Virus record (IMG/VR): IMGVR_UViG_3300021963_000197
Location: 1-48,529 of that record
DNA: 48,529 nt
Strand: one strand, 5' to 3'
From: a virus
The translations under genes were made by a program, and so were the position numbers. Shown here piece by piece: positions 6,481 through 48,377 of the stretch; positions within the stretch are counted from its first letter, which is position 1; each line of letters starts with the position of its first letter. The notes beneath the pieces are model-generated. The model was not told the DNA's origin and made no database searches. It saw nothing but the letters and a program-made list of their open reading frames with translations.

Positions 6481-7581
6481 ATGTTGGACGCATTGAAAAC
6501 GTTAATTGAAAATAATGTGATTTCTGAAGAGACTAAAGTAGCTCTTGAGTCAGCTTGGGAAGCTCGTGTAAACGAGAACCGTGAACAAGTTACTCAACAA
6601 CTACGCGAAGAATTCGCTCAACGTTATGAACACGATAAAGCCGCAATGGTAGAAGCTGTTGACAGAATGTTAACAGATAGCCTAGCTGTTGAAATCGCAG
6701 AATTTGAGGAAGATCGTCGTCAACTAGCAGAAGCTAAGGCAAAATATGCAGTAAAAATGCATAATGCTGGTAATGTAATGAAGGAATTCGTTGCACGCCA
6801 GTTAGCCGCAGAAGTACGCGAGTTACACGAAGATCAACTTGAAATGGCTCAGAAGTTTGGCAAGTTAGAAGAATTCGTCGTAGAAGCTCTAGCTCAAGAA
6901 ATTGCAGAATTTTACAAAGACAAAACTGACCTAGCAGAAACTAAGGTTCGCTTAGTTCGCGAAGGCCGTGAAGCATTAACACAAATGAAGACAAAGTTTG
7001 TACAACGTGCTGCTAAGATGGTTGAAGAAACAGTTAAAGTTAGTCTCACAAAAGAGATTAACCAACTGAAAGAAGACATCGATGCTGCCCGTAAAGCAGA
7101 TTTTGGTCGTAAGTTATTCGAAGCATTTGCTAACGAATATCAAACCAGTTATCTTTCTGAGAAATCAGAAACAAGTAAATTGCTCAAAGTTATAAACTTG
7201 AAAGATCTAGAAATTGCAGAAGCTCAACACGCTGTGGCTGAAGCTAAGAAGATCGCAGAAAGCAAAGAAACAGAAGCTCGTGCTCTTAAAGAAGGCATTG
7301 AGCGCCAAAAGATTATGCATGAATTGTTGAATCCTTTAAACAAGGAACAGCAAGGTATCATGACAGAATTGTTGGAAAGTGTACACACTACAAAATTAGA
7401 AAATAGTTTTAACAAGTACCTTCCCGCAGTAATCGAAGGCAAAGCACCGCAGAAGAAACAGGCACTAGTAGAGGCAAAAGAAGTTACAGGCAACAAAGTA
7501 AGTAACAGCGTAAGTAGTAGCGAGAACGATTCATCAAATAATATTGTTGACATACGTAGACTCGCTGGATTAAAAATTTAA
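6481..7581 (+). CDS. 22: prohead scaffolding protein gp22
   Basis: 366 residues (T4 gp22 about 269), almost wholly charged helix with heptad-like patterns from about 20 to 300, then a Ser/Asn-rich linker (340-355) and the short basic end VDIRRLAGLKI. It lies between the protease and the capsid gene, and the AGGAG site is strong. It would form the inner core that templates the prohead and is then destroyed. Several gp21-type sites are visible: E84|A85 (LAE|A), E214|A215 (LFE|A), E247|A248 (IAE|A), E271|G272 (LKE|G) and E331|A332 (LVE|A). Family assignment rests on order, composition and these sites rather than close sequence likeness. Confidence 0.88.
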   Translation: MLDALKTLIENNVISEETKVALESAWEARVNENREQVTQQLREEFAQRYEHDKAAMVEAVDRMLTDSLAVEIAEFEEDRRQLAEAKAKYAVKMHNAGNVMKEFVARQLAAEVRELHEDQLEMAQKFGKLEEFVVEALAQEIAEFYKDKTDLAETKVRLVREGREALTQMKTKFVQRAAKMVEETVKVSLTKEINQLKEDIDAARKADFGRKLFEAFANEYQTSYLSEKSETSKLLKVINLKDLEIAEAQHAVAEAKKIAESKETEARALKEGIERQKIMHELLNPLNKEQQGIMTELLESVHTTKLENSFNKYLPAVIEGKAPQKKQALVEAKEVTGNKVSNSVSSSENDSSNNIVDIRRLAGLKI

Positions 7582-37413: not shown

Positions 37414-39243
37414 ATGGCAATATCATTAGGTGCTGCAAGTTATGTTACCAGTGGACTAGTATTTCACGTTGACGCAGCTAATTCAGCAAGTTATCCTGGT
37501 ACAGGTACAACTTGGACTGACATAGCAGGCAATACTGCAGGCACAATGACCAGCGTAACCTACAATGGCGCTATCAACGGTGGTGTAATGACCTTCAGTG
37601 GTGCCGCTGGCATTGGTGTTACCTATCCTGGTACAAATCTTTCTTTAAACACACTCACTATTAGCGCATGGTCATATTCAACTAATTACACCCAAAGTGG
37701 CTTTTGGTTTGAAAAGACCACTAATAATCTAGTTAATACACAATACTCAATATTTTTAGACGGTTCCGGCAATATATATTTTAGAACTCAAGGACTAACT
37801 CCAGCTGATCTTGTCGTGAGTAATAACGGAGCTAATCTTGAAAACGGCCGTTGGAATAATGTAGTAGGTACATTTGATGGCACCACTAAGAGGATCTATG
37901 TTAATAATGTGTTAGTAGCCTCAGGTGCAGTAACAGGTACAATCACAGCTAATAGTTCTGGTAATGCCTATGTCGGTAGCTATGGCAGTCTTGCTGGTTA
38001 TCCATTCAACGGATATATTTCTAGTGTACAAGTCTATAACAGAGCGCTAAGTCTCAGCGAAATACAACAAAATTATGCTCACTTTAGTCGCGGAGTTTAT
38101 TTTAGTACAGGATCCAGTCAAGTTACTGGTTCGTCTTCAACATCAGATAGAGGCCGTTTGCTGGCAGTAAGTGCATACATTACTCCGGCTATCACAGGCA
38201 GTTATAATTGGACTCCTTATGTTCCGGTGACTACTCCGGCAACTATAACTTGGAATTATTTTGGAGCTAGTGTGGCTGCTACTGGTACTACTCCTGGACC
38301 TTATACCATAACACATTCAGCAGCACCAGCGACTTGGACACAGAGTGCTTACAGTACAGAATCAGGAGTTAATGTATTTGCACAGGCTACACCTAACCAA
38401 ACTAATACTTATATTATGGTTGGTTTAACACGTACTCCTGGCGCAAGTTATACAGCGATCGAATATGCACTTTATTACAATGCTGATGGAAATTTATATA
38501 TTTACGAAAGCGGTAATAATATTGGTACATTCGGTACCTACTCTACTACAACTGTTGGTCGTGTTACCTATGACGGTAGTTACATAAGATACTACGCAGA
38601 TGTGAATGGAACAAGGCCTATTAGAGTAGTAGCAGTATCTGGTCTAACAGGTTTAAAATTCCAAGCAGCGTTTTATAATGGTGGCGCCCTAAGTGGTGTA
38701 TACTTTGGATCTAATACTCATCAGATAGCAAAGAAAGCGTTTGCCATAGTTACTGGTGGCGGTGGCGGTGCAGCTGGCTATGCAGAAAGTGGAGGTTCGG
38801 GCGGACACTGCGAAAGAATGATAGATGTTACTGGGGTACAAACAGTTACAGTTACCATAGGTGGTGGTGGATCTACTGTTACCTATTATGCTGTGGCAGG
38901 CAATGGCGGAACTAGTAGTTTTGGATCGTATGCTACTGCTACAGGTGGCAATGGTGGCAATGCTAACTTCCAGCACAGTGGCGGCAGTGGCGGCACAGGC
39001 AGTGGCGGAGACGTTAATCTTGTAGGCGGTACTGGTACAGGACATGTTAACTTAGCAGGTTCAGGAGCTATGAGTAGTGGTGGGCAGAGTTACTGGGGCG
39101 GCGGCTATGCCATTAGCCACAGTCAAAACGTTCCAATCGGATTTAGTGCTCCGGGTGCAGGCGGCTGCGGCGGAAGAACTGATGCTACTAGTCCAGGGTC
39201 AGTAGGAGCACCTGGCGCAGTAGTAGTATATTCATATAGTTGA
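37414..39243 (+). CDS. LamG plus glycine-rich adhesin (first of three)
   Basis: 609 residues. A LamG-type domain runs from about 15 to 230 (LVFHVDAANSASYPGTGTTW, TISAWSYST, GRWNNVVGTFDGTTKRIYVN, SSVQVYNRALSLSEIQQNY). A beta domain follows (about 235-440). The last 165 residues are glycine-rich (VTGGGGGAAGYAESGGSGG, GGTSSFGSYATATGG, GSGGDVNLVGGTGTGH) and end AVVVYSYS. Such glycine-rich regions form polyglycine-II bundles at the tips of some T4-like adhesins (gp38 of phage S16). The ATG is one base after the previous stop, with AAGGA inside that gene. Probably a receptor-binding tip. Confidence 0.78.
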   Translation: MAISLGAASYVTSGLVFHVDAANSASYPGTGTTWTDIAGNTAGTMTSVTYNGAINGGVMTFSGAAGIGVTYPGTNLSLNTLTISAWSYSTNYTQSGFWFEKTTNNLVNTQYSIFLDGSGNIYFRTQGLTPADLVVSNNGANLENGRWNNVVGTFDGTTKRIYVNNVLVASGAVTGTITANSSGNAYVGSYGSLAGYPFNGYISSVQVYNRALSLSEIQQNYAHFSRGVYFSTGSSQVTGSSSTSDRGRLLAVSAYITPAITGSYNWTPYVPVTTPATITWNYFGASVAATGTTPGPYTITHSAAPATWTQSAYSTESGVNVFAQATPNQTNTYIMVGLTRTPGASYTAIEYALYYNADGNLYIYESGNNIGTFGTYSTTTVGRVTYDGSYIRYYADVNGTRPIRVVAVSGLTGLKFQAAFYNGGALSGVYFGSNTHQIAKKAFAIVTGGGGGAAGYAESGGSGGHCERMIDVTGVQTVTVTIGGGGSTVTYYAVAGNGGTSSFGSYATATGGNGGNANFQHSGGSGGTGSGGDVNLVGGTGTGHVNLAGSGAMSSGGQSYWGGGYAISHSQNVPIGFSAPGAGGCGGRTDATSPGSVGAPGAVVVYSYS

Positions 39244-39250
39244 GGCACAC

Positions 39251-40681
39251 ATGGCAGTAACACTCGGTCAACAAGCACTGACGATACCTAGAAAAGATCT
39301 AGTCTTATGGTTAGACGCCAATAATACATCTAGTTACCCTGGATCAGGAACCACTTGGTTTGATGTCAGCGGCAACGCAAATCATTTTACCATACTGGCC
39401 ACAGCCTATAATAGTTCAACTGCAATCAAATACATGGACTTTGGCGGATCTTTCGGATGTGCTAAAAGATCTTCTGGCGCAGACATGCCTGTGGGTAGTT
39501 ATCCTTACACTGAAGCTACAGTAGTTGCTTGGACTAGACTTCTTAACAATACAGTTACGTGGAAAACACTATTAAGAAGTTTATCCACTGGTGGCGACCA
39601 TCAAATAATTGTAGGAGGTCCAGGGTCAACGGGCTACGGCATGGGCATGTATGATAATACCAATGGTGGCGGCTATATTGACAGCGGCTATTTACAAACT
39701 AGCATACCTGGATATAATACTGGCACATGGAACATGTTGGTCTATAGATTTTATAGATATAGTCCTTATTATACAATTACCTTAAACAATTCTCCAGCAA
39801 GTATATTAGGATCTTCAACTAATATCAATGGTAGTTTTAAACGTGGCATTTGTAGCATTGGTGCATATAACGGCGGCGATCAATCGAACGCTTCTGTTGC
39901 TAGCCAATACTGGGGAGACCTTGGTTCTATCGCCATCTATAACCGCGCACTATCAGACACTGAAGTAACGCAGTGTTATAATGCAGGAGCACCGACCTAT
40001 AAGGGAGCAGCCGTACAGTATGAAGATGCTATCACCTATAACGACGGTACTGTTCAAAGATTAAATTTTGATACCACTACTGATTCTGGGACACTATTGA
40101 GTACTTCAGTGTACAGTACCGCGGGTACGTTTACTTGGACTAAACCTGTAGGGTGTACTAGAGCACATGTCAGAGTTATAGGCGGCGGCGGTGGCGCTGC
40201 AGGCTACGCAGAATCAGGTGGCGCAGGCGGGTATAGTGAAAAGATTGTTGATGTTACTAATGTCAGCTCGGTGTCAGTTACAGTAGGAGCTGGCGGTACT
40301 TGTGTTACCTATTATGCAGCCGCAGGCTCAGGCGGTACTAGCAGTTTTGGTTCTTATGCAACTGCTACAGGTGGCAGCGGAACTAATACTCAGTTTGCAC
40401 ACACCGGCGGCGTCGGCGGATTAGGATCCGGCGGCGATATTAACTTGTATGGCGGAGGCGGTACAGGACATAGTAATGCAGCAGGCAGTGGAATTATTGG
40501 GCGTGGCGGCACAAGTTTCTATGGAAGTAGTACAACTGTTCGCAGAGACTTAATTAATACTAAATTACTTAATGGAGCTCCAGGATCAGGCGGTCCAGGA
40601 GCAAGAACAGATGATGGCAACGGTGATACTACTGGCCGTCTTGGTGAACCTGGGATTGTCGTAGTATATGCTTATAAATAA
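39251..40681 (+). CDS. LamG plus glycine-rich adhesin (second of three)
   Basis: 476 residues, built like the gene before it but without its middle domain. LamG-like region 15-245 (LVLWLDANNTSSYPGSGTTW, GDLGSIAIYNRALSDTEV), a short joint with DAITYNDGTVQRLNFD, then 'GTFTWTKPVGCTRAHVRVIG' and a C-terminal glycine-rich domain ending IVVVYAYK. The glycine-rich domain aligns with the other two copies over its whole length. GAGG site; 7 bp gap. The joint sequence recurs at the start of the third copy, which shows how it could have arisen by loss of the LamG part. Confidence 0.78.
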   Translation: MAVTLGQQALTIPRKDLVLWLDANNTSSYPGSGTTWFDVSGNANHFTILATAYNSSTAIKYMDFGGSFGCAKRSSGADMPVGSYPYTEATVVAWTRLLNNTVTWKTLLRSLSTGGDHQIIVGGPGSTGYGMGMYDNTNGGGYIDSGYLQTSIPGYNTGTWNMLVYRFYRYSPYYTITLNNSPASILGSSTNINGSFKRGICSIGAYNGGDQSNASVASQYWGDLGSIAIYNRALSDTEVTQCYNAGAPTYKGAAVQYEDAITYNDGTVQRLNFDTTTDSGTLLSTSVYSTAGTFTWTKPVGCTRAHVRVIGGGGGAAGYAESGGAGGYSEKIVDVTNVSSVSVTVGAGGTCVTYYAAAGSGGTSSFGSYATATGGSGTNTQFAHTGGVGGLGSGGDINLYGGGGTGHSNAAGSGIIGRGGTSFYGSSTTVRRDLINTKLLNGAPGSGGPGARTDDGNGDTTGRLGEPGIVVVYAYK

Positions 40682-40693
40682 CAGGAAGTAAAA

Positions 40694-41377
40694 ATGGCAA
40701 TTACACTAGGATCAACTGGTATTACATTTAACGATGGTACTACGCAGACTTCTCGATATGAAGATCAACTTGACAAAGGTAAGTTGTTGTCTATTTCATC
40801 ATATACTGTTGCAGGATCTTACACATGGAATAAACCTGTTGGTTGTACCAGTATCTTGGTAAGAGCAGTGGGTGGTGGCGGTGGTGCTAGTGGCTACTGT
40901 GAAAGCGGTGGTGCTGGAGGTTTCGCAGAAAGATTAATTGACGTTACCAGTGTTACCAGTGTAGCAGTTACAGTGGGAGCTGGAGGTGCAGGTACAGCCT
41001 ATGTAGGAACTACTGGCGGTTTATCCACTGGTGGTGGAACTAGTAGTTTTGGATCTTACATAACAGCCACAGGCGGTTTCGGCAGTAACAGAAATTATAA
41101 TCACACTGGTGGCCACGGTGGTGTAGGTAGTGGCGGTAATATTAACCTATATGGCGGCACTGGTACTGGGCATACTAACAGTGTAGGTAATGGTGCGGTG
41201 GCACGTGGTGGCGAAAGTTATTTTGGTGGGGGTGCAGGCGCAAATAGAGCCAACGCCACAGGAAAGAATGGAAATGGTGCGCCAGGATCAGGCGGTGCAG
41301 GCAATAGAACAGACGATGGTAGTGCAGCCGGTGGCCAAGGCGAAGATGGTGCAGTAATAATTTGGGAGTACAAGTAA
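40694..41377 (+). CDS. glycine-rich adhesin lacking LamG (third of three)
   Basis: 227 residues. Only a short N-terminus (MAITLGSTGITFNDGTTQTS) precedes the KPVGCTSILVRAVGGGGG joint and the glycine-rich domain (GYCESGGAGGFAERLIDV, GTSSFGSYITATGGFG, GSGGNINLYGGTGTGH) ending AVIIWEYK. This is the minimal form of the three tandem copies. The TAA stop overlaps the next ATG (TAATG at 41375-41379), tying it to the small protein that follows, as for other fibre and small-protein pairs here. AGGAAG site. Confidence 0.78.
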   Translation: MAITLGSTGITFNDGTTQTSRYEDQLDKGKLLSISSYTVAGSYTWNKPVGCTSILVRAVGGGGGASGYCESGGAGGFAERLIDVTSVTSVAVTVGAGGAGTAYVGTTGGLSTGGGTSSFGSYITATGGFGSNRNYNHTGGHGGVGSGGNINLYGGTGTGHTNSVGNGAVARGGESYFGGGAGANRANATGKNGNGAPGSGGAGNRTDDGSAAGGQGEDGAVIIWEYK

Positions 41378-41778
41378 TGAAACGAGCATTGATAAACAGT
41401 TTAGAACCAGGTAGAGTATGTGAGGTAGTAGATCCTGGAAATGAATTTGAAGTTTCAGCAGATTTATCATGGATCGATTGTCCAGATGATACAACTACAT
41501 TACATACTCATAATGTTGAGACTGGAGAATTTACACCTTTTGATATATTAACAAGTCCGGGCTTTGCTGAAAATGCCTACAAAGTAGCCAGAGTGATTGC
41601 CTATAAATCACCTGGGGAACAGTTAGACATGCTGTTCAAAGAATTACAAGCAACTGGCACAGTTAGTCCCGACGGGCCTTGGGCCACACATGTAGCCACA
41701 GTTAAAGCCAACATACCAAAAGATGATCCTGCGGCTGTACTAGCATGGAACCAGAAGCTAGCTGAGGGCAATCAATGA
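41377..41778 (+). CDS. small fibre-associated protein with divergent QLD motif
   Basis: 133 residues from the ATG at 41377 (MKRALINSLEPGRVCEVVDP), which overlaps the previous stop; an in-frame TTG at 41362 is less likely. Near residues 90-125 the segment SPGEQLDMLFKELQATG, then W-x3-V-x2-VK-x2-IPK, matches the pattern of the two small proteins at 46480 and 48072 (YPSI-x-DQLD-x-LYH-x-G ... IK-(D)-x-YPK). I infer a shared C-terminal domain with a different N-terminal part. Small proteins of this sort beside fibres are commonly assembly factors. Exact function unproven. Confidence 0.65.
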   Translation: MKRALINSLEPGRVCEVVDPGNEFEVSADLSWIDCPDDTTTLHTHNVETGEFTPFDILTSPGFAENAYKVARVIAYKSPGEQLDMLFKELQATGTVSPDGPWATHVATVKANIPKDDPAAVLAWNQKLAEGNQ

Positions 41779-41809: not shown

Positions 41810-43045
41810 ATGACAAAATTTTCAAAAAGATTTTCAATAGCCCACTACGATAGATTCCAAAACGAGTTTGACAACGTTTACTACACTATTTTTAAAAATG
41901 CTGACCCTGCATTTTTAGACAATATTCACGACATCTACTTTGGCAAATATTTTTATTACACATTTGATGGTCAAGAACGACGCTGCGGAAACCCTATGGG
42001 AGTCGAAGCCAGTGATGCACAAATTGACAGCCTATTTAAACTACAAGAAGAAACTGGTGTTGAAATAAGCCTAACATTTAATACCATAGAAGTTCCTCAC
42101 GAAGTAATTTTTAATCACGAAATTAGACATCAATTTGTTGAATGGATTGGCAGTTACTATGATAGAGGACTACGTAGTTGTACTATGAGTTCACAGCACA
42201 TTCTTCGAACAGGAGAACTACAAGAACGCTGCCCTGATATGCGATGGAAAAGCACAGTGAATCAAATTGTATCTGATGCACAACAGTTTATTGACTATGC
42301 ATATCTTGGTTATAATACAATTTTGTTAGACAGAAGTCTTAACAGAAATATCAAAGAACTTAAACGTATTCGCAAAGCTCAAAACTATCTTAACAGTAAA
42401 AATCCACGTAAAAAATTATTAACTAGTTTATTAGTAAAAGAATCTTGTATCTATAGTTGTCCTTTTAAGAAAGAGCATGATGCTGTTGGAGAAATTATCA
42501 GCACTGAGTATTTTAGTGGTCCTGCTAATTTAACCTGTAATGGATGGCGCGGATCTAATGCATTTAAACAGCTACCTAGAGCAGGTGTTGATATTGTTGC
42601 AAATGACACAGATACTATGTTAAAATTTTTAGATCTAGTAGACATATTTAAATTTTCAGGTAGGCTAACAGTTCCAGTATTTGACGCAAAAGATGCAGAA
42701 CATTTTAAAGCAGTATGGTACTACAATGAACAAGAAAAATTTATACAGCCTATATCAAAAATTGGTCAAACAATTTACGCAGACAACTATGATGATATTA
42801 TAAAAAATAACTTAGCACCTATACATAGTTGGATTCCTGGATGGATTGATACTAGACATACCAAAGAAGATTATCGCACAACTTATACTGGCTATAAAGG
42901 TATATGGTCAACAGAGCCAGGTAAACGATTAGAAAAATTATTAACCAGTTGTAGAAATCAATGCTGGGATTGCCATGAATGTGAGCGAACATTTGGCACA
43001 GAAGAAGTTGATTCGGCACTGCAACTAAGAAAAGTTGCACAATGA
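41810..43045 (+). CDS. Cys-rich TIM-barrel-like protein, possible Fe-S enzyme (peptidase U32-like)
   Basis: 411 residues. No certain family. The order 'EISLTFNTIEV' near 85-95, 'LRSCTMSSQHI' near 121-131, 'MRWKSTVNQIVSDAQQFIDY' near 144-163, 'GYNTILLDRSLNRNIKELKRI' in pieces (GYNTILLDRS, NIKELKRI), then LLVKESCIYSCPFKKEHD resembles the beta-alpha units and Cys pair of peptidase U32-like proteins, many of which bind a 4Fe-4S cluster and modify RNA or quinones. Cysteines cluster at 213, 217, 243 and at the C-terminus 381, 385, 388, 391 (C-x3-C-x2-C-x2-C). The latter also recalls radical SAM spacing but sits at the wrong end. The gene overlaps the next by ATGA and heads a three-gene unit with a 2OG oxygenase and a halogenase. 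No ribosome site. Confidence 0.6.
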   Translation: MTKFSKRFSIAHYDRFQNEFDNVYYTIFKNADPAFLDNIHDIYFGKYFYYTFDGQERRCGNPMGVEASDAQIDSLFKLQEETGVEISLTFNTIEVPHEVIFNHEIRHQFVEWIGSYYDRGLRSCTMSSQHILRTGELQERCPDMRWKSTVNQIVSDAQQFIDYAYLGYNTILLDRSLNRNIKELKRIRKAQNYLNSKNPRKKLLTSLLVKESCIYSCPFKKEHDAVGEIISTEYFSGPANLTCNGWRGSNAFKQLPRAGVDIVANDTDTMLKFLDLVDIFKFSGRLTVPVFDAKDAEHFKAVWYYNEQEKFIQPISKIGQTIYADNYDDIIKNNLAPIHSWIPGWIDTRHTKEDYRTTYTGYKGIWSTEPGKRLEKLLTSCRNQCWDCHECERTFGTEEVDSALQLRKVAQ

Positions 43046-43620
43046 TTAAGATAGTTGATAATTTATTAACTCCTTCATATGCAACTGCCATAGAAGATGA
43101 TGTTATGAGGCCTGAATATCCTTGGTTATATCTTGACGATGTTACCTATGACGGATCTACTAATAATCCGGGCTTGGTCAGTGTAATTTTTGATCACGGA
43201 AAACCAATGAGTGATTGGTATCCTTTTATTAAACCTGCTGTATATCAAATAGCAGATGCTGGTGGAGTCGCCATAGAAAAATTACTACGCATACGCATAG
43301 GATTTTTATTACAAGAAAATACGCAACCTAAACCTAGTACTCCGCATGTGGATTTTTTATATCCTCATTACACTGCTTGTTATTATATTAACAACAGTGA
43401 TGGAGATACTGTAGTATACAATCAAACACTAGATGATGTAGGCATAGAAAAAGATCATGATATTATAAAAAAATATGTTGATCAGACTGAGTTTACAGTT
43501 GCTACGACCAGTCCTCCACGTAAAGGATCTGTATGCATATTTGACGGCAAGCACTTTCACTCTAGCACTAATCCTTACAAAAATAGGCGACGACTGGTAA
43601 TGACAGTTAATTGGACCTAA
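43042..43620 (+). CDS. 2OG-Fe(II) oxygenase (prolyl-4-hydroxylase-like fold)
   Basis: 192 residues. Iron-binding triad H102-x-D104 in TPHVDFLYPHYTACYYINNS and a distal His in CIFDGKHFHSSTNPYKNRRR (His171 or His173), with Arg183/184 placed to hold 2-oxoglutarate; a 'DGDTVVYN' strand lies between. This is the standard pattern of the P4H-like oxygenases that hydroxylate proteins or small molecules. The ATG overlaps the TGA of the previous gene, and the halogenase begins one base after its own stop, so the three are almost certainly co-translated. It has little likeness to the oxygenase at 8825 and is a separate acquisition. Substrate unknown. Confidence 0.85.
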   Translation: MIKIVDNLLTPSYATAIEDDVMRPEYPWLYLDDVTYDGSTNNPGLVSVIFDHGKPMSDWYPFIKPAVYQIADAGGVAIEKLLRIRIGFLLQENTQPKPSTPHVDFLYPHYTACYYINNSDGDTVVYNQTLDDVGIEKDHDIIKKYVDQTEFTVATTSPPRKGSVCIFDGKHFHSSTNPYKNRRRLVMTVNWT

Positions 43621-43621
43621 T

Positions 43622-45232
43622 ATGTATCACAACGTCAAATCAATTTGTATTGTAGGTGGAGGATCCAGCGGATGGATGACCGCAGCAGCCATAGCACGAC
43701 AGCTACCCCACATTAAACTTACGCTGGTAGAAAGTCCCAGCATCCCTACCATTGGTGTAGGGGAAAGCACCATTGGCCATATCAATCAATATCTACATTT
43801 ACTAGGATTAAAAGACGAAGATTGGATGCAACATTGTAGTGCAACCTACAAAACATCAATTAAATTCATAGACTTTAGAGAAACACCCGGCGATGAACCG
43901 CACGTATTCCACTATCCGTTTGGCAACTTTGATATGACTGATAAGCCAAGAGGTATCATGGAGTGGTTCTTGGCCAGAGCCAGAGATAAGACTATACCCC
44001 CTAGTCATTTTGCAGAGTTTTTTCACGATAGTGTGTTAATGACCAATGCCAATAAGATGACTAAGAATGAACACGGCGAACTTAGAGGTTTTAATTTTTT
44101 CTTTGACACTGCTTACCATATGGACGCTGCATTGTTTGGCATATTTTTACGAGATAAAATTTGTTTGCCGTCTGGTATGACACACATAGTAGACACGATA
44201 ATAGACATTAGACAACGAGACGATCAAAGTGTCAGTGAGGTTGTTACAGAAAATAACGGAGCTATTTCAGCTGATTTGTTTGTTGACTGCACAGGATTTA
44301 AATCATTACTTTTAGAACAAACACTAAAAGTTCCTTTTCAGTCTTTTAGTAACACTCTACTAAACGACAGCGCCATTGCTACAATTATACCTTATATAGA
44401 TAAGGATCAAGAATTGACATCTGTAACCAGTTGTACAGCTATAGAATGTGGCTGGGTGTGGAATATTCCCCTATGGGATAGAATAGGCACAGGCTATGTC
44501 TACAGCAGCCGTTTTGCTACTCCTGAACAAGCAGAAGAGCAGTTTCGTCAACATTTGAAATCTAATAGAATGATAGTGGCCGATGCTGCAAGAGCAGAAG
44601 CTGCTGAATTTAGACATATTAAAATTAAACATGGGGTACATGAACGAGCATGGGAAAAGAATGTAGTGGCCGTAGGATTATCCAATGGTTTTATTGAACC
44701 ACTAGAATCTACAGGCCTAATGCTAACACATGAAGCTATTGTTAAACTTGTTGCTGCGTTAGACATGCGAGACGGTCATGTGACACAATTTGATGTTGAC
44801 ATGTTTAACTATGCGCTCTATGATCAAGTTATTGGATTTAAAGAATTTATCAGCCAGCACTATGCTTTTAGCCGTAGAAATGACACAGCCTACTGGCGTG
44901 CAGTCACCGGCGGAACTACATATTCTTTAGATATGAATCAATTTAAACCTACGGTACAAAATTCATATCACGACCTAGCTTTTAGACTGCATAGAACTAG
45001 GAATTTTAGTCATCAAGGCATGAGCGGAATTATCTATATTGCTGCAGGCATGGGTGTTAATCCTATTGATGCTGCACATGCAGATTATTTAGATATAAAA
45101 TACTTAGAAATACCAGGTTACAGCCTAAAATCTTTAAGAACGTGGGAAGAGCATCGGCAAGCAGTTATGTCAGCTATTGAAAAAATGCCCTCACACTGTG
45201 AATTTTTAGCAAAAAATATATATTTTACCTAG
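43622..45232 (+). CDS. flavin-dependent halogenase (tryptophan halogenase family)
   Basis: 536 residues, the usual full length. FAD-binding GGGSSGW (residues 12-18) within IVGGGSSGWMTAAAIARQLP, VGEST near 47-50, and ATYKTSIKF with Lys77 aligned to the catalytic Lys of PrnA/RebH (Lys79). The halogenase signature W-x-W-x-I-P is intact (Trp278, Trp280, Pro283). The GLSNGFIEPLESTGLML block is also present. Everything needed for oxidative halogenation appears to be there, but no flavin reductase gene is in the window, so reduced flavin would come from the host. Third gene of a tight unit with a Cys-rich protein and a 2OG oxygenase. Tryptophan is the classical substrate, but many family members act on other indoles or phenols, so the substrate is not known. 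Confidence 0.92.
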   Translation: MYHNVKSICIVGGGSSGWMTAAAIARQLPHIKLTLVESPSIPTIGVGESTIGHINQYLHLLGLKDEDWMQHCSATYKTSIKFIDFRETPGDEPHVFHYPFGNFDMTDKPRGIMEWFLARARDKTIPPSHFAEFFHDSVLMTNANKMTKNEHGELRGFNFFFDTAYHMDAALFGIFLRDKICLPSGMTHIVDTIIDIRQRDDQSVSEVVTENNGAISADLFVDCTGFKSLLLEQTLKVPFQSFSNTLLNDSAIATIIPYIDKDQELTSVTSCTAIECGWVWNIPLWDRIGTGYVYSSRFATPEQAEEQFRQHLKSNRMIVADAARAEAAEFRHIKIKHGVHERAWEKNVVAVGLSNGFIEPLESTGLMLTHEAIVKLVAALDMRDGHVTQFDVDMFNYALYDQVIGFKEFISQHYAFSRRNDTAYWRAVTGGTTYSLDMNQFKPTVQNSYHDLAFRLHRTRNFSHQGMSGIIYIAAGMGVNPIDAAHADYLDIKYLEIPGYSLKSLRTWEEHRQAVMSAIEKMPSHCEFLAKNIYFT

Positions 45233-45271: not shown

Positions 45272-46471
45272 ATGGCACTAATACTCGATGGCACTAATGG
45301 ATTAACCTACACAGGTGACACAGCATCATCTGTAAATTTCACAGTGCCTCAAAATTTGGGAATTGGTACCAATAGTCCAAAAACAAGATTTCAAGCAACT
45401 GGTACAAGTCTACAACCTGTCCCCACACTAGGTACTGCCAGCGGCACTGCTTTTATCAGTAATAGTGATACTAACTATGGTATATTAATGGGTGTTCAAG
45501 GCAGCGGTAGTGCTTGGATGCAGGTGCAACGAACAGACGCCACTGCCACCGCCTATGACTTACTGCTACAACCAAGTGGCGGTAATGTGGGAGTAGGGGT
45601 GACCTCGACAGGTGCTAAACTTGATGTAGTTAGTAGTGGATTGCCGTTTCGAATAGCAGCATCTACTTCAAGCGGTTACGCACTTGCACAGTTTGGTCAA
45701 TCTGCGACCGCATCACAAAACTGGCATATAGGATCTGAAGGCGATGGAACTTTCCGTTGGTATAATGGAGTATACGGCGCCGGAACAGAACGTGTGCGTA
45801 TTGACTCCAGCGGTAATGTAGGTATTAATACCTCAGTGATGAACGTCTACGATGCTGTAGCAGTTAATAGACCTCTTGTCGTAGCACGATCAGATACTAG
45901 TACCAGTAATATTGGTAGTGCTGCTTCTTTAACTATCAGTAATCTTGACACTACAACCAACAATGTTTCTCAAATAAATTTTGCCGCAATTACTGGTGCA
46001 AATACTAATCATTTTTCATCAGCGATTATTTCCGCAATTCATGGTGCAAGAGTAAATGGACAGTATCCAACAGGTATATTAACATTCTCAACATCTACTG
46101 CAACTAATAATGCACCAAGTGAAAAATTAAGAATTACTAACGTTGGAACCGTTCAATATAGCAATGCTTACGCTAGTAGTTTTCACGTTGACACAACCCC
46201 TGCGGCAATATCAGTAGCGGCATCTGGAACTATCGACGTTGGTTCAACTACGATTCCTTTTTCAGGTATGGTTATGGTTAATAGTTTTACAACAGGCGGA
46301 ATAACTATATATCTCTGTGGCGGCGGCAGTGTAGTAGCTGTCTCATCAGTAATTGGAGCTGTAGGAACTATGACCTATGTTCCCGCTAATAACGGGTATC
46401 GTTGGACTAACAATACTGCTGCTGCTGTTACAGTTGGTATGTTTATAGTACGTACTAGAACTAACGCATAA
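45272..46471 (+). CDS. tail fibre with shared 'LDGTNGLTYTGDT' N-terminus (first)
   Basis: 399 residues. It opens MALILDGTNGLTYTGDTASS, almost the same as the gene at 46789, then shaft units of the 'GIGTNSPKTRF' and 'ERVRIDSSGNVGI' type (near 30-190), which are the usual short repeats of trimeric fibres. The C-terminal third is a distinct domain: SVAASGTIDVGSTTIPFSG, GGITIYLCGGGSVVA, TYVPANNGYRWTNNT, ending FIVRTRTNA. AAGG site. It is followed after 8 bp by a 101-residue QLD-motif protein, so it forms a fibre and accessory pair. No enzymatic motif. Confidence 0.75.
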   Translation: MALILDGTNGLTYTGDTASSVNFTVPQNLGIGTNSPKTRFQATGTSLQPVPTLGTASGTAFISNSDTNYGILMGVQGSGSAWMQVQRTDATATAYDLLLQPSGGNVGVGVTSTGAKLDVVSSGLPFRIAASTSSGYALAQFGQSATASQNWHIGSEGDGTFRWYNGVYGAGTERVRIDSSGNVGINTSVMNVYDAVAVNRPLVVARSDTSTSNIGSAASLTISNLDTTTNNVSQINFAAITGANTNHFSSAIISAIHGARVNGQYPTGILTFSTSTATNNAPSEKLRITNVGTVQYSNAYASSFHVDTTPAAISVAASGTIDVGSTTIPFSGMVMVNSFTTGGITIYLCGGGSVVAVSSVIGAVGTMTYVPANNGYRWTNNTAAAVTVGMFIVRTRTNA

Positions 46472-46479
46472 GGAAGAAC

Positions 46480-46785
46480 ATGAGCAGAGAATTCACACAT
46501 GAACTAATAGGTAACAAAATGTATATTGTTACCACAGAAATAGAAGGTAACGCTGAGTCTTTTCACTGCGTAGTGGCCAATGACGAAAGTGAGCTAGCTG
46601 AACTATTAGAGTTAGCAATTACATCTAAATACGAGCCTCCGGCAGAATATGCGTTAACCTATGCACAACAACGAGCTGCTGCATATCCATCTATAGTTGA
46701 TCAACTAGATTTACTATATCATGTTGGTTATGATGGATGGCGAGCCTCAATACAAACAATTAAAGATAAGTATCCAAAAGGATAA
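46480..46785 (+). CDS. 101-residue QLD-motif fibre-associated protein (copy A)
   Basis: The N-terminal half (MSREFTHELIGNKMYIVTTE) looks like a small beta domain. The C-terminal half is helical and carries AAAYPSIVDQLDLLYHVGYDG then W-x3-IQTIKDKYPKG (given in pieces). The YPSI-x-DQLD-x-LYH-x-G motif and the closing 'IK-(D)-x-YPK' match the protein at 48072, also 101 residues, though the N-terminal halves differ. Proteins with this C-terminal pattern lie downstream of tail fibres in many phages, and I suspect an assembly or chaperone role. AGGAAG site; AAGGA for the next fibre lies at its 3' end. Confidence 0.72.
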   Translation: MSREFTHELIGNKMYIVTTEIEGNAESFHCVVANDESELAELLELAITSKYEPPAEYALTYAQQRAAAYPSIVDQLDLLYHVGYDGWRASIQTIKDKYPKG

Positions 46786-46788
46786 TCT

Positions 46789-48063
46789 ATGGCAATAATA
46801 TTAGATGGAACTAACGGATTAACCTACACAGGTGACACTACTGGTGCCCAAAGTCTAAACGTACCACAAAACATCGGCATTGGTACAACTACGCCTGGTG
46901 CAAGACTAGAGATCAAAGGCACTGCTGCTGACAACGCCACATTTAACATTAACAACAACAGTGGCAATATTTGGAAGTTATGGAATGACAATGGTGCAAG
47001 CGCACTAAACATTCAGTACAACGGCTCAACTAACGTGGTTGTTACTACCAGCGGCAATTTAGGTATTGGCACATCGTCGCCAACAAATAAACTAGCAGTT
47101 GTTGGCAACATAGGTCTACAATACGGCAGTATGCCCATGCCTATTCAACCAATGCTGACTTCCCCGTCGGGTAAAGCTAGAGTAACATTCAGCTGTACTG
47201 GAGCTCTACAGTCTTGGACTGTGCCAGCAGGGGTTACATCAATATTGGTAAAACTCTGGGGCGCAGGCGGTGGTGGTGGAAACACTGGTGGCTGGGTTCA
47301 CGGATCAAGAGGCGGCGGCGGCCATACTCTGGGAATTGTACCTTGTACTCCTGGACAGATATTCTATATAGTTGTAGGCCAAGGCGGTCAAACAAACTAT
47401 GCCGGCGGCACAACTACTAACTACGGTGGTGGTGGTGGATTCCAAACTAACAGTGATAATCGATATAGTGGCGGTGGTGGTGGCTATACTGGATTTTTTA
47501 ACACTAATACTATCAGTCAGGCAAATGCTATTTTAATAGCAGGCGGTGGTGGCGGTGGTGGCACTTCTAGATTTTTCCAAGGTAACTGGGGTGGCGGCGG
47601 TGGCGGTGTCACAGGACAAAACGGAGCATCATCATTTGACGGTCGTTATACATCAGGCGGCGGTGGCGGTACACAATCAGCAGGCGGAGCAGCAGGACTT
47701 ACACAAAGCGGAACAGTAACAGCCGGTTCAGCACTAACTGGTGGATATGGGCCTAACGGTGGTTACGGTGGTGGCGGTGGTGGCGGATATTTTGGTGGTG
47801 GTGGTGGTGGCTATTATGAATCAAACTCTATGTCTGGAGCAGGTGGTGGTTCTGGATATGTAAATACTAGTTTATCCTTGTACGGTGCGACATTCTGTGC
47901 CTACGGTGATAGACCAGCAATGTATGACGATCAAGATTTACCAAAGACCTACGACGGATATAATAATTGGAGTCATTTTGCAGTTGGCGGAAATTATGTT
48001 AACAGCAGTGCTCAATATACCAGTGCCGGTGGCGGTGGTGGTGTCTGTGTGATATACTATTGA
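46789..48063 (+). CDS. tail fibre with shared N-terminus and glycine-rich tip (second)
   Basis: 424 residues. MAIILDGTNGLTYTGDTTGA repeats the N-terminus at 45272, followed by QNIGIGTTTPGARLEI and GNLGIGTSSPTNKLAV shaft units. From about 140 the TVPAGVTSILVKLWGAGGGGG strand leads into a 240-residue glycine-rich domain with many G5-G8 runs and Tyr/Phe between them, ending GGGGGVCVIYY. The opening strand and run pattern recall glycine-rich domains of the ALK/LTK ligand-receptor type (Pfam Gly_rich), and also polyglycine-II tips. It is not closely alike to the three copies at 37414-41377. The following small protein pairs with it. AAGGA site. Confidence 0.75.
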   Translation: MAIILDGTNGLTYTGDTTGAQSLNVPQNIGIGTTTPGARLEIKGTAADNATFNINNNSGNIWKLWNDNGASALNIQYNGSTNVVVTTSGNLGIGTSSPTNKLAVVGNIGLQYGSMPMPIQPMLTSPSGKARVTFSCTGALQSWTVPAGVTSILVKLWGAGGGGGNTGGWVHGSRGGGGHTLGIVPCTPGQIFYIVVGQGGQTNYAGGTTTNYGGGGGFQTNSDNRYSGGGGGYTGFFNTNTISQANAILIAGGGGGGGTSRFFQGNWGGGGGGVTGQNGASSFDGRYTSGGGGGTQSAGGAAGLTQSGTVTAGSALTGGYGPNGGYGGGGGGGYFGGGGGGYYESNSMSGAGGGSGYVNTSLSLYGATFCAYGDRPAMYDDQDLPKTYDGYNNWSHFAVGGNYVNSSAQYTSAGGGGGVCVIYY

Positions 48064-48071
48064 GGATGACT

Positions 48072-48377
48072 ATGATTAATTACTCTGATGCAATTTTAAA
48101 ACTACGACCAGAAGCAACTTTTAGCATTGTTGCTAACGATTATTCTACTCTACAGTGGTACGATCAAATTCAGACAAAACCAACAGAAGAAGAAATTATT
48201 GATAAACTAGCAGAACTTGAAGAAGAATCTACTAAGAATTTGTACAAATTAAAAAGACAATTCGAATATCCTTCAATCGGTGATCAATTAGATGATTTAT
48301 ATCATGCTGGGCTGTTTTCAGAAGAGATGATGGAAAAAATTAAAGAAATTAAGGACCGCTATCCCAAGCCCCAATAA
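48072..48377 (+). CDS. 101-residue QLD-motif fibre-associated protein (copy B)
   Basis: Started at 48072 (MINYSDAILKLRPEATFSI) with GAGG 6 nt upstream inside the previous stop region; upstream in-frame starts at 48060 (TTG) and 48066 would lengthen it by two to four residues. The C-terminal half has EYPSIGDQLDDLYHAGLFS and IKEIKDRYPKPQ, the same pattern as the 46480 protein, while the N-terminal half reads FSIVANDYSTLQWYDQI and is unrelated or very diverged. It lies downstream of a glycine-rich fibre and before another fibre, matching the paired layout. Confidence 0.72.
   Translation: MINYSDAILKLRPEATFSIVANDYSTLQWYDQIQTKPTEEEIIDKLAELEEESTKNLYKLKRQFEYPSIGDQLDDLYHAGLFSEEMMEKIKEIKDRYPKPQ

Follow-up and report, generated by a model that had tools for sequence, protein, structure and literature searches.

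Flavin-dependent halogenases of cyanophages have been described as PrnA-like enzymes of auxiliary metabolism (PMC9964418, PMC2984593) and, in the case of S-SSM6a, as part of a cluster for a secondary metabolite or for decoration of the capsule (PMC7824862). They have long been annotated as enzymes of tryptophan or secondary metabolism, with a substrate never proven. VirX1 from phage Syn10 (PDB 6QGM), which is used in biocatalysis, halogenates in vitro with the preference I > Br > Cl and forms trimers whose open active site takes bulky substrates (PMC8407142); its natural substrate was unreported in the literature searched, its original description lying outside that search. In a 48.5-kb virus contig of IMG/VR (record IMGVR_UViG_3300021963_000197, 48,529 nucleotides, here called the window), a halogenase of this type (C) is encoded together with a cysteine-rich protein (A) and a 2-oxoglutarate (2OG)-Fe(II) oxygenase (B), and the three genes follow those of glycine-rich tail-fibre tips (F) and of a small protein (D) (Table 1). 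Here we report that the halogenase is tied to one subtype of these tips and to D. We consider that the block F-F-F-D-A-(B)-C is somewhat more likely than not a unit for the maturation of tail-fibre tips, whose enzymes modify the phage's own tips. A link of cyanophage halogenases to fibre tips was not found in the literature searched, subscription journals being mostly outside it.

The described systems compare with the window as follows. VirX1 resembles C in its full-length homology, its catalytic motifs and its genomic seat behind F-D: it is CPUG_00131 of Syn10 and lies behind F-F-D, two genes after D, both tips bearing the residue motif described below. The Syn10 block differs in that an A gene is absent among the annotated neighbours and that two halogenases and an array of 2OG oxygenases are present. 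The S-SSM6a cluster shares with the window a phage-borne halogenase with 2OG oxygenases, and the metabolite or capsule pathway proposed for it includes carbamoyltransferases and a HemK-like methylase (PMC7824862). In contrast, a scan of the proteins around the cassette of the window showed no carbamoyltransferase or HemK-like genes, and the S-SSM6a halogenase is only 26.6% identical to C. As for the tips, the glycine-rich part of the Pam3 fibre forms its receptor-binding end, which a chaperone holds while the fibre is assembled, and the tip is trimeric (PMC9608196). F has the glycine-rich fold of Pam3 gp24, and D has the place behind F that gp25 has behind gp24 (7YPX/7YFW); the profile alignment shows neither of the two His in Pam3, which is also absent among the listed halogenase-bearing phage records.

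Linkage of the enzymes to glycine-rich fibre tips

F was recognized by the Gly_rich_2 domain (PF21722) and the Pam3 tail-fibre fold, both of which were found. D is likened to the gp25 chaperone only by its position and two-part layout; it had no match among PDB profiles and no detectable similarity to Pam3 gp25, and its C-terminal motif is also present in other fibre-accessory genes. Our IMG/VR searches returned ranked best matches (top 80) on redundant contigs, and fibre modules move as blocks. When D alone was the query, it lay beside A or C in all 80 loci listed and was preceded by one to three glycine-rich F genes wherever the contig extended far enough. A few of these loci have one small open reading frame (ORF) between D and the enzyme gene, and two have C ahead of D. 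Clustering of neighbours placed the F and D types directly upstream in distant relatives as well. Of the 21 cultured phage records that have a homologue of D, at least 20 also encode a VirX1-like halogenase (35-49% identity), adjacent by coordinates. F itself gave no match to phage records by tblastn, presumably owing to the low-complexity filter.

The block reads F-F-F-D-A-(B)-C in the jumbo-type clade and F-F-F-D-C-(C)-...-2OG genes in T4-like marine phages. The orders seen were F-D-A-C, F-D-A-B-C, F-D-C-C, F-C-D-A, and F-D with a convergent halogenase; in the last kind (L211-212 and L265-270) halogenases and 2OG oxygenases stand on the opposite strand, still adjoining F-D, as read in L212 and L265. 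Close relatives always have A and C adjacent where the contig permits, with a gap of -4 in 18 loci and -1 in 8, and about half of these loci have B between the two. The core that is conserved therefore consists of A and C, B being an optional member. The initial annotation had proposed to ask whether all three genes stay together, which they do in the case of A and C and not in that of B. It had also drawn the unit around A, B and C, which do belong together; the boundaries were too narrow, as the unit begins upstream with F (37414-41377) and D (41377-41778). The true unit comprises one to three F tips, D, and then A, B and C in the combinations given above. The connection with fibre genes turned out to be far stronger than was claimed, D and motif-bearing F being tied to the halogenase across IMG/VR loci.

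F-D-A without a halogenase was found at 13 loci. A thus follows the tips too, which suggests that it has a target of its own on the tip or on D. The order F-F-F(-F)-C-D-A was observed at L205 and L210, the former with more oxygenase-like genes on the opposite strand.

All three enzyme genes are under strong purifying selection. The ratios of non-synonymous to synonymous substitution rates (dN/dS) against the nearest relative, L002, are ~0.07 for A, ~0.08 for B and ~0.06 for C, the proteins being 86-91% identical. With these low ratios and homologues in dozens of contigs, the cassette is well beyond chance.

A five-residue motif in the linked tips

Five positions, Y/H68, E70, Y103, H137 and H160 in F3 numbering, are near-invariant in 80 halogenase-linked tips, and F3 of the window carries Y68, E70, Y103, H137 and H160. 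The motif is nearly all lost in seven tips from F-D-A loci without a halogenase. Tyr occupies position 103 in ~98% of the 80 linked tips and is deleted in six of the seven others. F was searched with a motif-bearing and with a motif-less query, and a locus with at least 2.5 kb downstream was regarded as having room. Where a motif-bearing F had room, a halogenase was present in 115 of the 115 listed loci (73 + 42, the contigs being partly common), and the motif-bearing loci without one were all ended by the contig edge. Loci of motif-less F had a halogenase in none of 24 cases, 15 of them with room. Seven apparent exceptions, with the motif and seemingly no halogenase, were dismissed when their halogenase and oxygenase genes were found on the other strand, running towards D. 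The linkage covers 95 tip sequences at most 70% identical to one another; it is strong and old, yet it is not a repeated independent correlation.

Halogenase C and oxygenase B

C matches the Trp_halogenase family PF04820 with 362 bits (cut-off 21; expectation value (E) 4.8e-108). Its best PDB match is VirX1 (6qgm, E 7e-141) over residues 5-534, whereas true Trp halogenases align to C only as far as residue 427-432. GxGxxG, the catalytic Lys, WxWxIP and the region of the active-site Glu are kept in 73-74 of 74 relatives; the Trp-specific motifs and the C-terminal Trp-binding segment of the PrnA/RebH type are absent from C. The motifs STIGHI and YPFGN of C resemble STLGHF and YPFGP of VirX1, not ATFSTV and HPFER of Trp 5-halogenase, in a table that accompanies the grouping of VirX1 with MibH (PMC8269204). 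Judged by these motifs and alignments, C is a VirX1-type flavin-dependent halogenase. The enzyme itself is not new, and the suggestion of a new system had to be given up as far as C is concerned, VirX1-type halogenases being already known from cyanophages. C also weakly matches two flavin enzymes of protein maturation, QhpG and LodB. These matches, taken together with the clustering of VirX1 with MibH, which acts on a peptide, make a protein substrate plausible.

B reaches 18.5 bits against 2OG-FeII_Oxy_3, under the 27-bit cut-off. The metal triad H102xD104 and H173, as well as R184, are conserved in 46 of 46 relatives, and by this triad and Arg B is identified as a 2OG-Fe(II) oxygenase, as it had initially been called, together with the halogenase. 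B also matches PHROG_274 (E 8.1e-36), labelled as DNA endonuclease V; this identity was ruled out by the 2OG motif, and the label is a misnomer. Both PHROGs and many cyanophage records name 2OG-Fe(II) oxygenases 'DNA endonuclease V (denV)'.

Protein A and the U32 proteins

A had no match in Pfam or NCBIfam and only PHROG matches of unknown function, and PF01136 was not matched by any of 35 relatives at E 5. Seven cysteines are invariant across 46 diverse relatives, in the pattern C213x3C217...C243 with a C-terminal C381x3C385x2C388HxC391. The AlphaFold model, built with 46 relatives, is alpha/beta with a predicted local distance difference test (pLDDT) score of 92, and the best solved fold for it in Foldseek was the U32 protein Mk0906 (5D88, E 9.2e-8). 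When profiles were compared with hhalign, A matched L120/L121, outlying U32-type proteins from a bacterial metagenome-assembled genome (MAG), with P 9.5e-9 and canonical U32 proteins with P 4e-4. Taken as single sequences, these two gave P 5e-5 and 9e-5, unrelated and reversed controls 0.034 or worse. L120/L121 in turn matched canonical U32 proteins with P 1.9e-14.

Among the known U32 members are iron-sulfur (Fe-S) proteins required for O2-independent hydroxylation, partly prephenate-linked (PMC6747719, PMC6599085), and the canonical cluster motif is CX6CX15CX3/4C (PMC6747719). A resembles TrhP, RlhA, UbiU/UbiV and Mk0906 in the barrel fold, in the profile link and in a Cys-rich loop following a barrel strand. 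It differs in being without a PF01136 match and in its cysteine spacing, which is CX3C...C plus a C-terminal CX3CX2CHXC and departs from the canonical motif. Because of this different spacing we do not file A as a U32 member, though a U32-like mode of action is possible. Its modelled fold and profile place A near the U32 Fe-S proteins, and it may work as they do, in keeping with the initial guess of a barrel-like, possibly Fe-S, enzyme. Two other identities were rejected. A radical-SAM enzyme was discounted, as the barrel loop reads CX3C, not CX3CX2C, and the fold search ranked U32 first. A role as flavin reductase for C was ruled out by the 13 F-D-A loci without a halogenase and by the occurrence of A alone in bacterial MAGs.

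Homologues of A away from the phage fibre context were observed in the bacterial MAGs L080, L081 and L082 (39-50% identity), L082 having two long tandem copies. L120 and L121, from the genome of L080, have an A-like C-terminal Cys cluster and bridge A to canonical U32 proteins.

A possible role in tip maturation and its alternatives

We propose that the F tips, which would form Pam3-type fibre ends, are held once produced by D as a chaperone-like protein, and that the co-translated enzymes modify them. With reduced flavin, O2 and halide as its reactants, C would halogenate an aromatic residue conserved in F. Y103 is our best single guess for this residue, although it is unlikely to be the right one; E70, H137 and H160 are conserved alongside it. 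A, as a U32-like Fe-S barrel, and B may add hydroxyls on the same tip, and the adhesion or stability of the modified tip would be changed. We count the trimeric state of both VirX1 and the Pam3 tip, and the open active site of VirX1, in favour of enzymes acting on F. Tentatively, and with rather less confidence than in the maturation unit itself, we suggest that in at least two lineages of aquatic phages the glycine-rich adhesin tips are halogenated, and by way of A and B hydroxylated, at a conserved Tyr/His site, and that this is the natural job of the VirX1-type halogenases of cyanophages, so far called tryptophan halogenases. The strict tie to one fibre-tip subtype supplies a concrete candidate substrate in F, a chaperone-like partner in D and candidate residues. 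If the proposal is true, phage adhesin tips are modified by enzymes after translation, which adds to host recognition a layer that has scarcely been considered, and A is a protein-directed U32-like enzyme; halogen on the tips, if found, would be something categorically new.

Several points weigh against tip maturation. Modification of the tip is itself something that we infer from the linkage. Fibre loci are plastic and gather seemingly unrelated genes (PMC7029224). In the virion proteome of S-SZBM1 the neighbouring genes 51-54 are listed, whereas genes 48-49, at the F position, and the halogenase gene 46 are not; this could reflect absence or poor peptide coverage, and Gly-rich peptides that were modified or poorly cleaved may have escaped detection. 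In the tree, motif-bearing and motif-less tips are separated by one deep split, and motif and halogenase therefore need not be causally connected; repeated independent gain or loss of the two was not found in this tree, which lends no causal support. Lastly, L084-L094 have A-family and halogenase genes without a glycine-rich F, beside other repeat proteins and glycosyltransferases.

The plasticity of host-recognition clusters and the single split would also be expected if fibre, D and enzymes were one exchange module whose members hitch-hike with no biochemical link between enzyme and fibre. The persistence of the gene set despite varying order and strand, and the strong purifying selection, make this improbable. 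A somewhat better case, though still an unlikely one, can be made for enzymes whose product or target is a small metabolite or a glycan of the host, such as a halogenated compound derived from an amino acid or sugar, or a surface polysaccharide, the fibre region simply gathering genes for interaction with the host. This is how the S-SSM6a cluster, with its carbamoyltransferases, halogenase and 2OG oxygenases, was published (PMC7824862), and L084-L094 likewise combine A, a carbamoyltransferase and glycosyltransferases. The block of the window, however, is without a carbamoyltransferase, glycosyltransferase or amino-acid-activating gene, and wherever there is room the halogenase accompanies one fibre subtype and D, whichever strand it is on and in T4-like as well as jumbo-type phages. 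We regard the tip as a likelier target than either a small metabolite or a surface molecule of the host.

The standard annotation, a halogenase of free Trp serving as an auxiliary metabolic gene (PrnA-like, for pyrrolnitrin or protection from antibiotics), has been given for S-CREM1 (PMC9964418) and was termed speculative elsewhere (PMC2984593). We give it very little credence, since the alignment of Trp halogenases stops near residue 427 whereas that of VirX1 reaches 534, the motifs of C are VirX1-like and unlike those of Trp 5-halogenase (PMC8269204), and no pyrrolnitrin-type partner genes are nearby in the window. Both published views, free Trp and a metabolite enzyme, match the linkage less well than modification of the tip does. 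It is just as improbable that C is a flavin monooxygenase that matures F, or forms a protein-derived cofactor or cross-link, with no net halogenation. Its weak matches to the maturases QhpG and LodB would fit such a role, and the E/Y/H/H set of F might bind a metal; nevertheless, the halogenase motifs are all kept in 73-74 of 74 relatives, and VirX1 does halogenate in vitro (PMC8407142).

Organization of the window and neighbouring genes

The gene at 6481-7581 encodes a protein with 41% identity to one of Pseudomonas phage PA5oct, and the structural genes of the window are jumbo-myovirus-like; the phage of the window is thus itself no typical cyanophage. The ORFs and junctions of the cassette are as initially described, on the + strand: A and B share an ATGA overlap (CACAATGATT), and B and C are joined by TAA, a single base and ATG (CCTAATATG). 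PHROG and Pfam matches upstream and downstream bear out that fibre and fibre-accessory genes flank the cassette on both sides. A search for promoters and terminators around it was uninformative.

Table 1. Features of the tip and enzyme block and its 3' flank in the window.
Feature	Position	Strand	Match
F1, LamG (Laminin_G_3) and C-terminal glycine-rich fibre-tip protein	37414..39243	+	PF13385 E 6.7e-25; PHROG_863 tail fiber assembly E 2.1e-29
F2, second glycine-rich fibre-tip paralogue	39251..40681	+	PF21722 Gly_rich_2 E 5.2e-10
F3, third glycine-rich fibre-tip paralogue	40694..41377	+	PF21722 E 2.5e-14; Foldseek best PDB 7ypx (Pam3 tail fibre) E 2.4e-8
Y103 codon of F3, candidate halogenated tyrosine	41000..41002	+	
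D, small fibre-chaperone-like protein, opens the linked block	41377..41778	+	PHROG_1787
A, U32-like alpha/beta barrel, 411 amino acids, proposed Fe-S hydroxylase	41810..43045	+	
B, putative 2OG-Fe(II) oxygenase, 192 amino acids, optional member	43042..43620	+	
C, predicted flavin-dependent halogenase, VirX1 type, 536 amino acids	43622..45232	+	
Downstream fibre protein, flank outside the conserved block	45272..46471	+	PHROG_18345/9942 tail fiber E 3e-6 and 9e-6
Small fibre-accessory protein (flank), C-terminal YPSIxDQLDxLY motif common to D	46480..46785	+	PHROG_9114 E 8.2e-14

On the 3' side of the cassette (45272-48377) lie two further fibre genes, and behind each of them stands a small accessory gene that encodes the YPSIxDQLD motif. 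L084-L094 contain tandem virion-like proteins of ~190-200 amino acids with (CA[HR]Y)n repeats and GYGYGFGYG tails (for example L094:4276-6043 and L089:1315-2562). Their neighbours are GT9-like glycosyltransferases, an A-family gene, 2OG oxygenases and a split carbamoyltransferase, with a halogenase in L089/L094. These proteins look like another tyrosine-rich adhesin with modification enzymes of its own. Finally, on a 306-kb phage contig, an ORF (L051:9569-9910) begins like a terminase large subunit and continues as an intein-like sequence (SKCVKGNSIITV).

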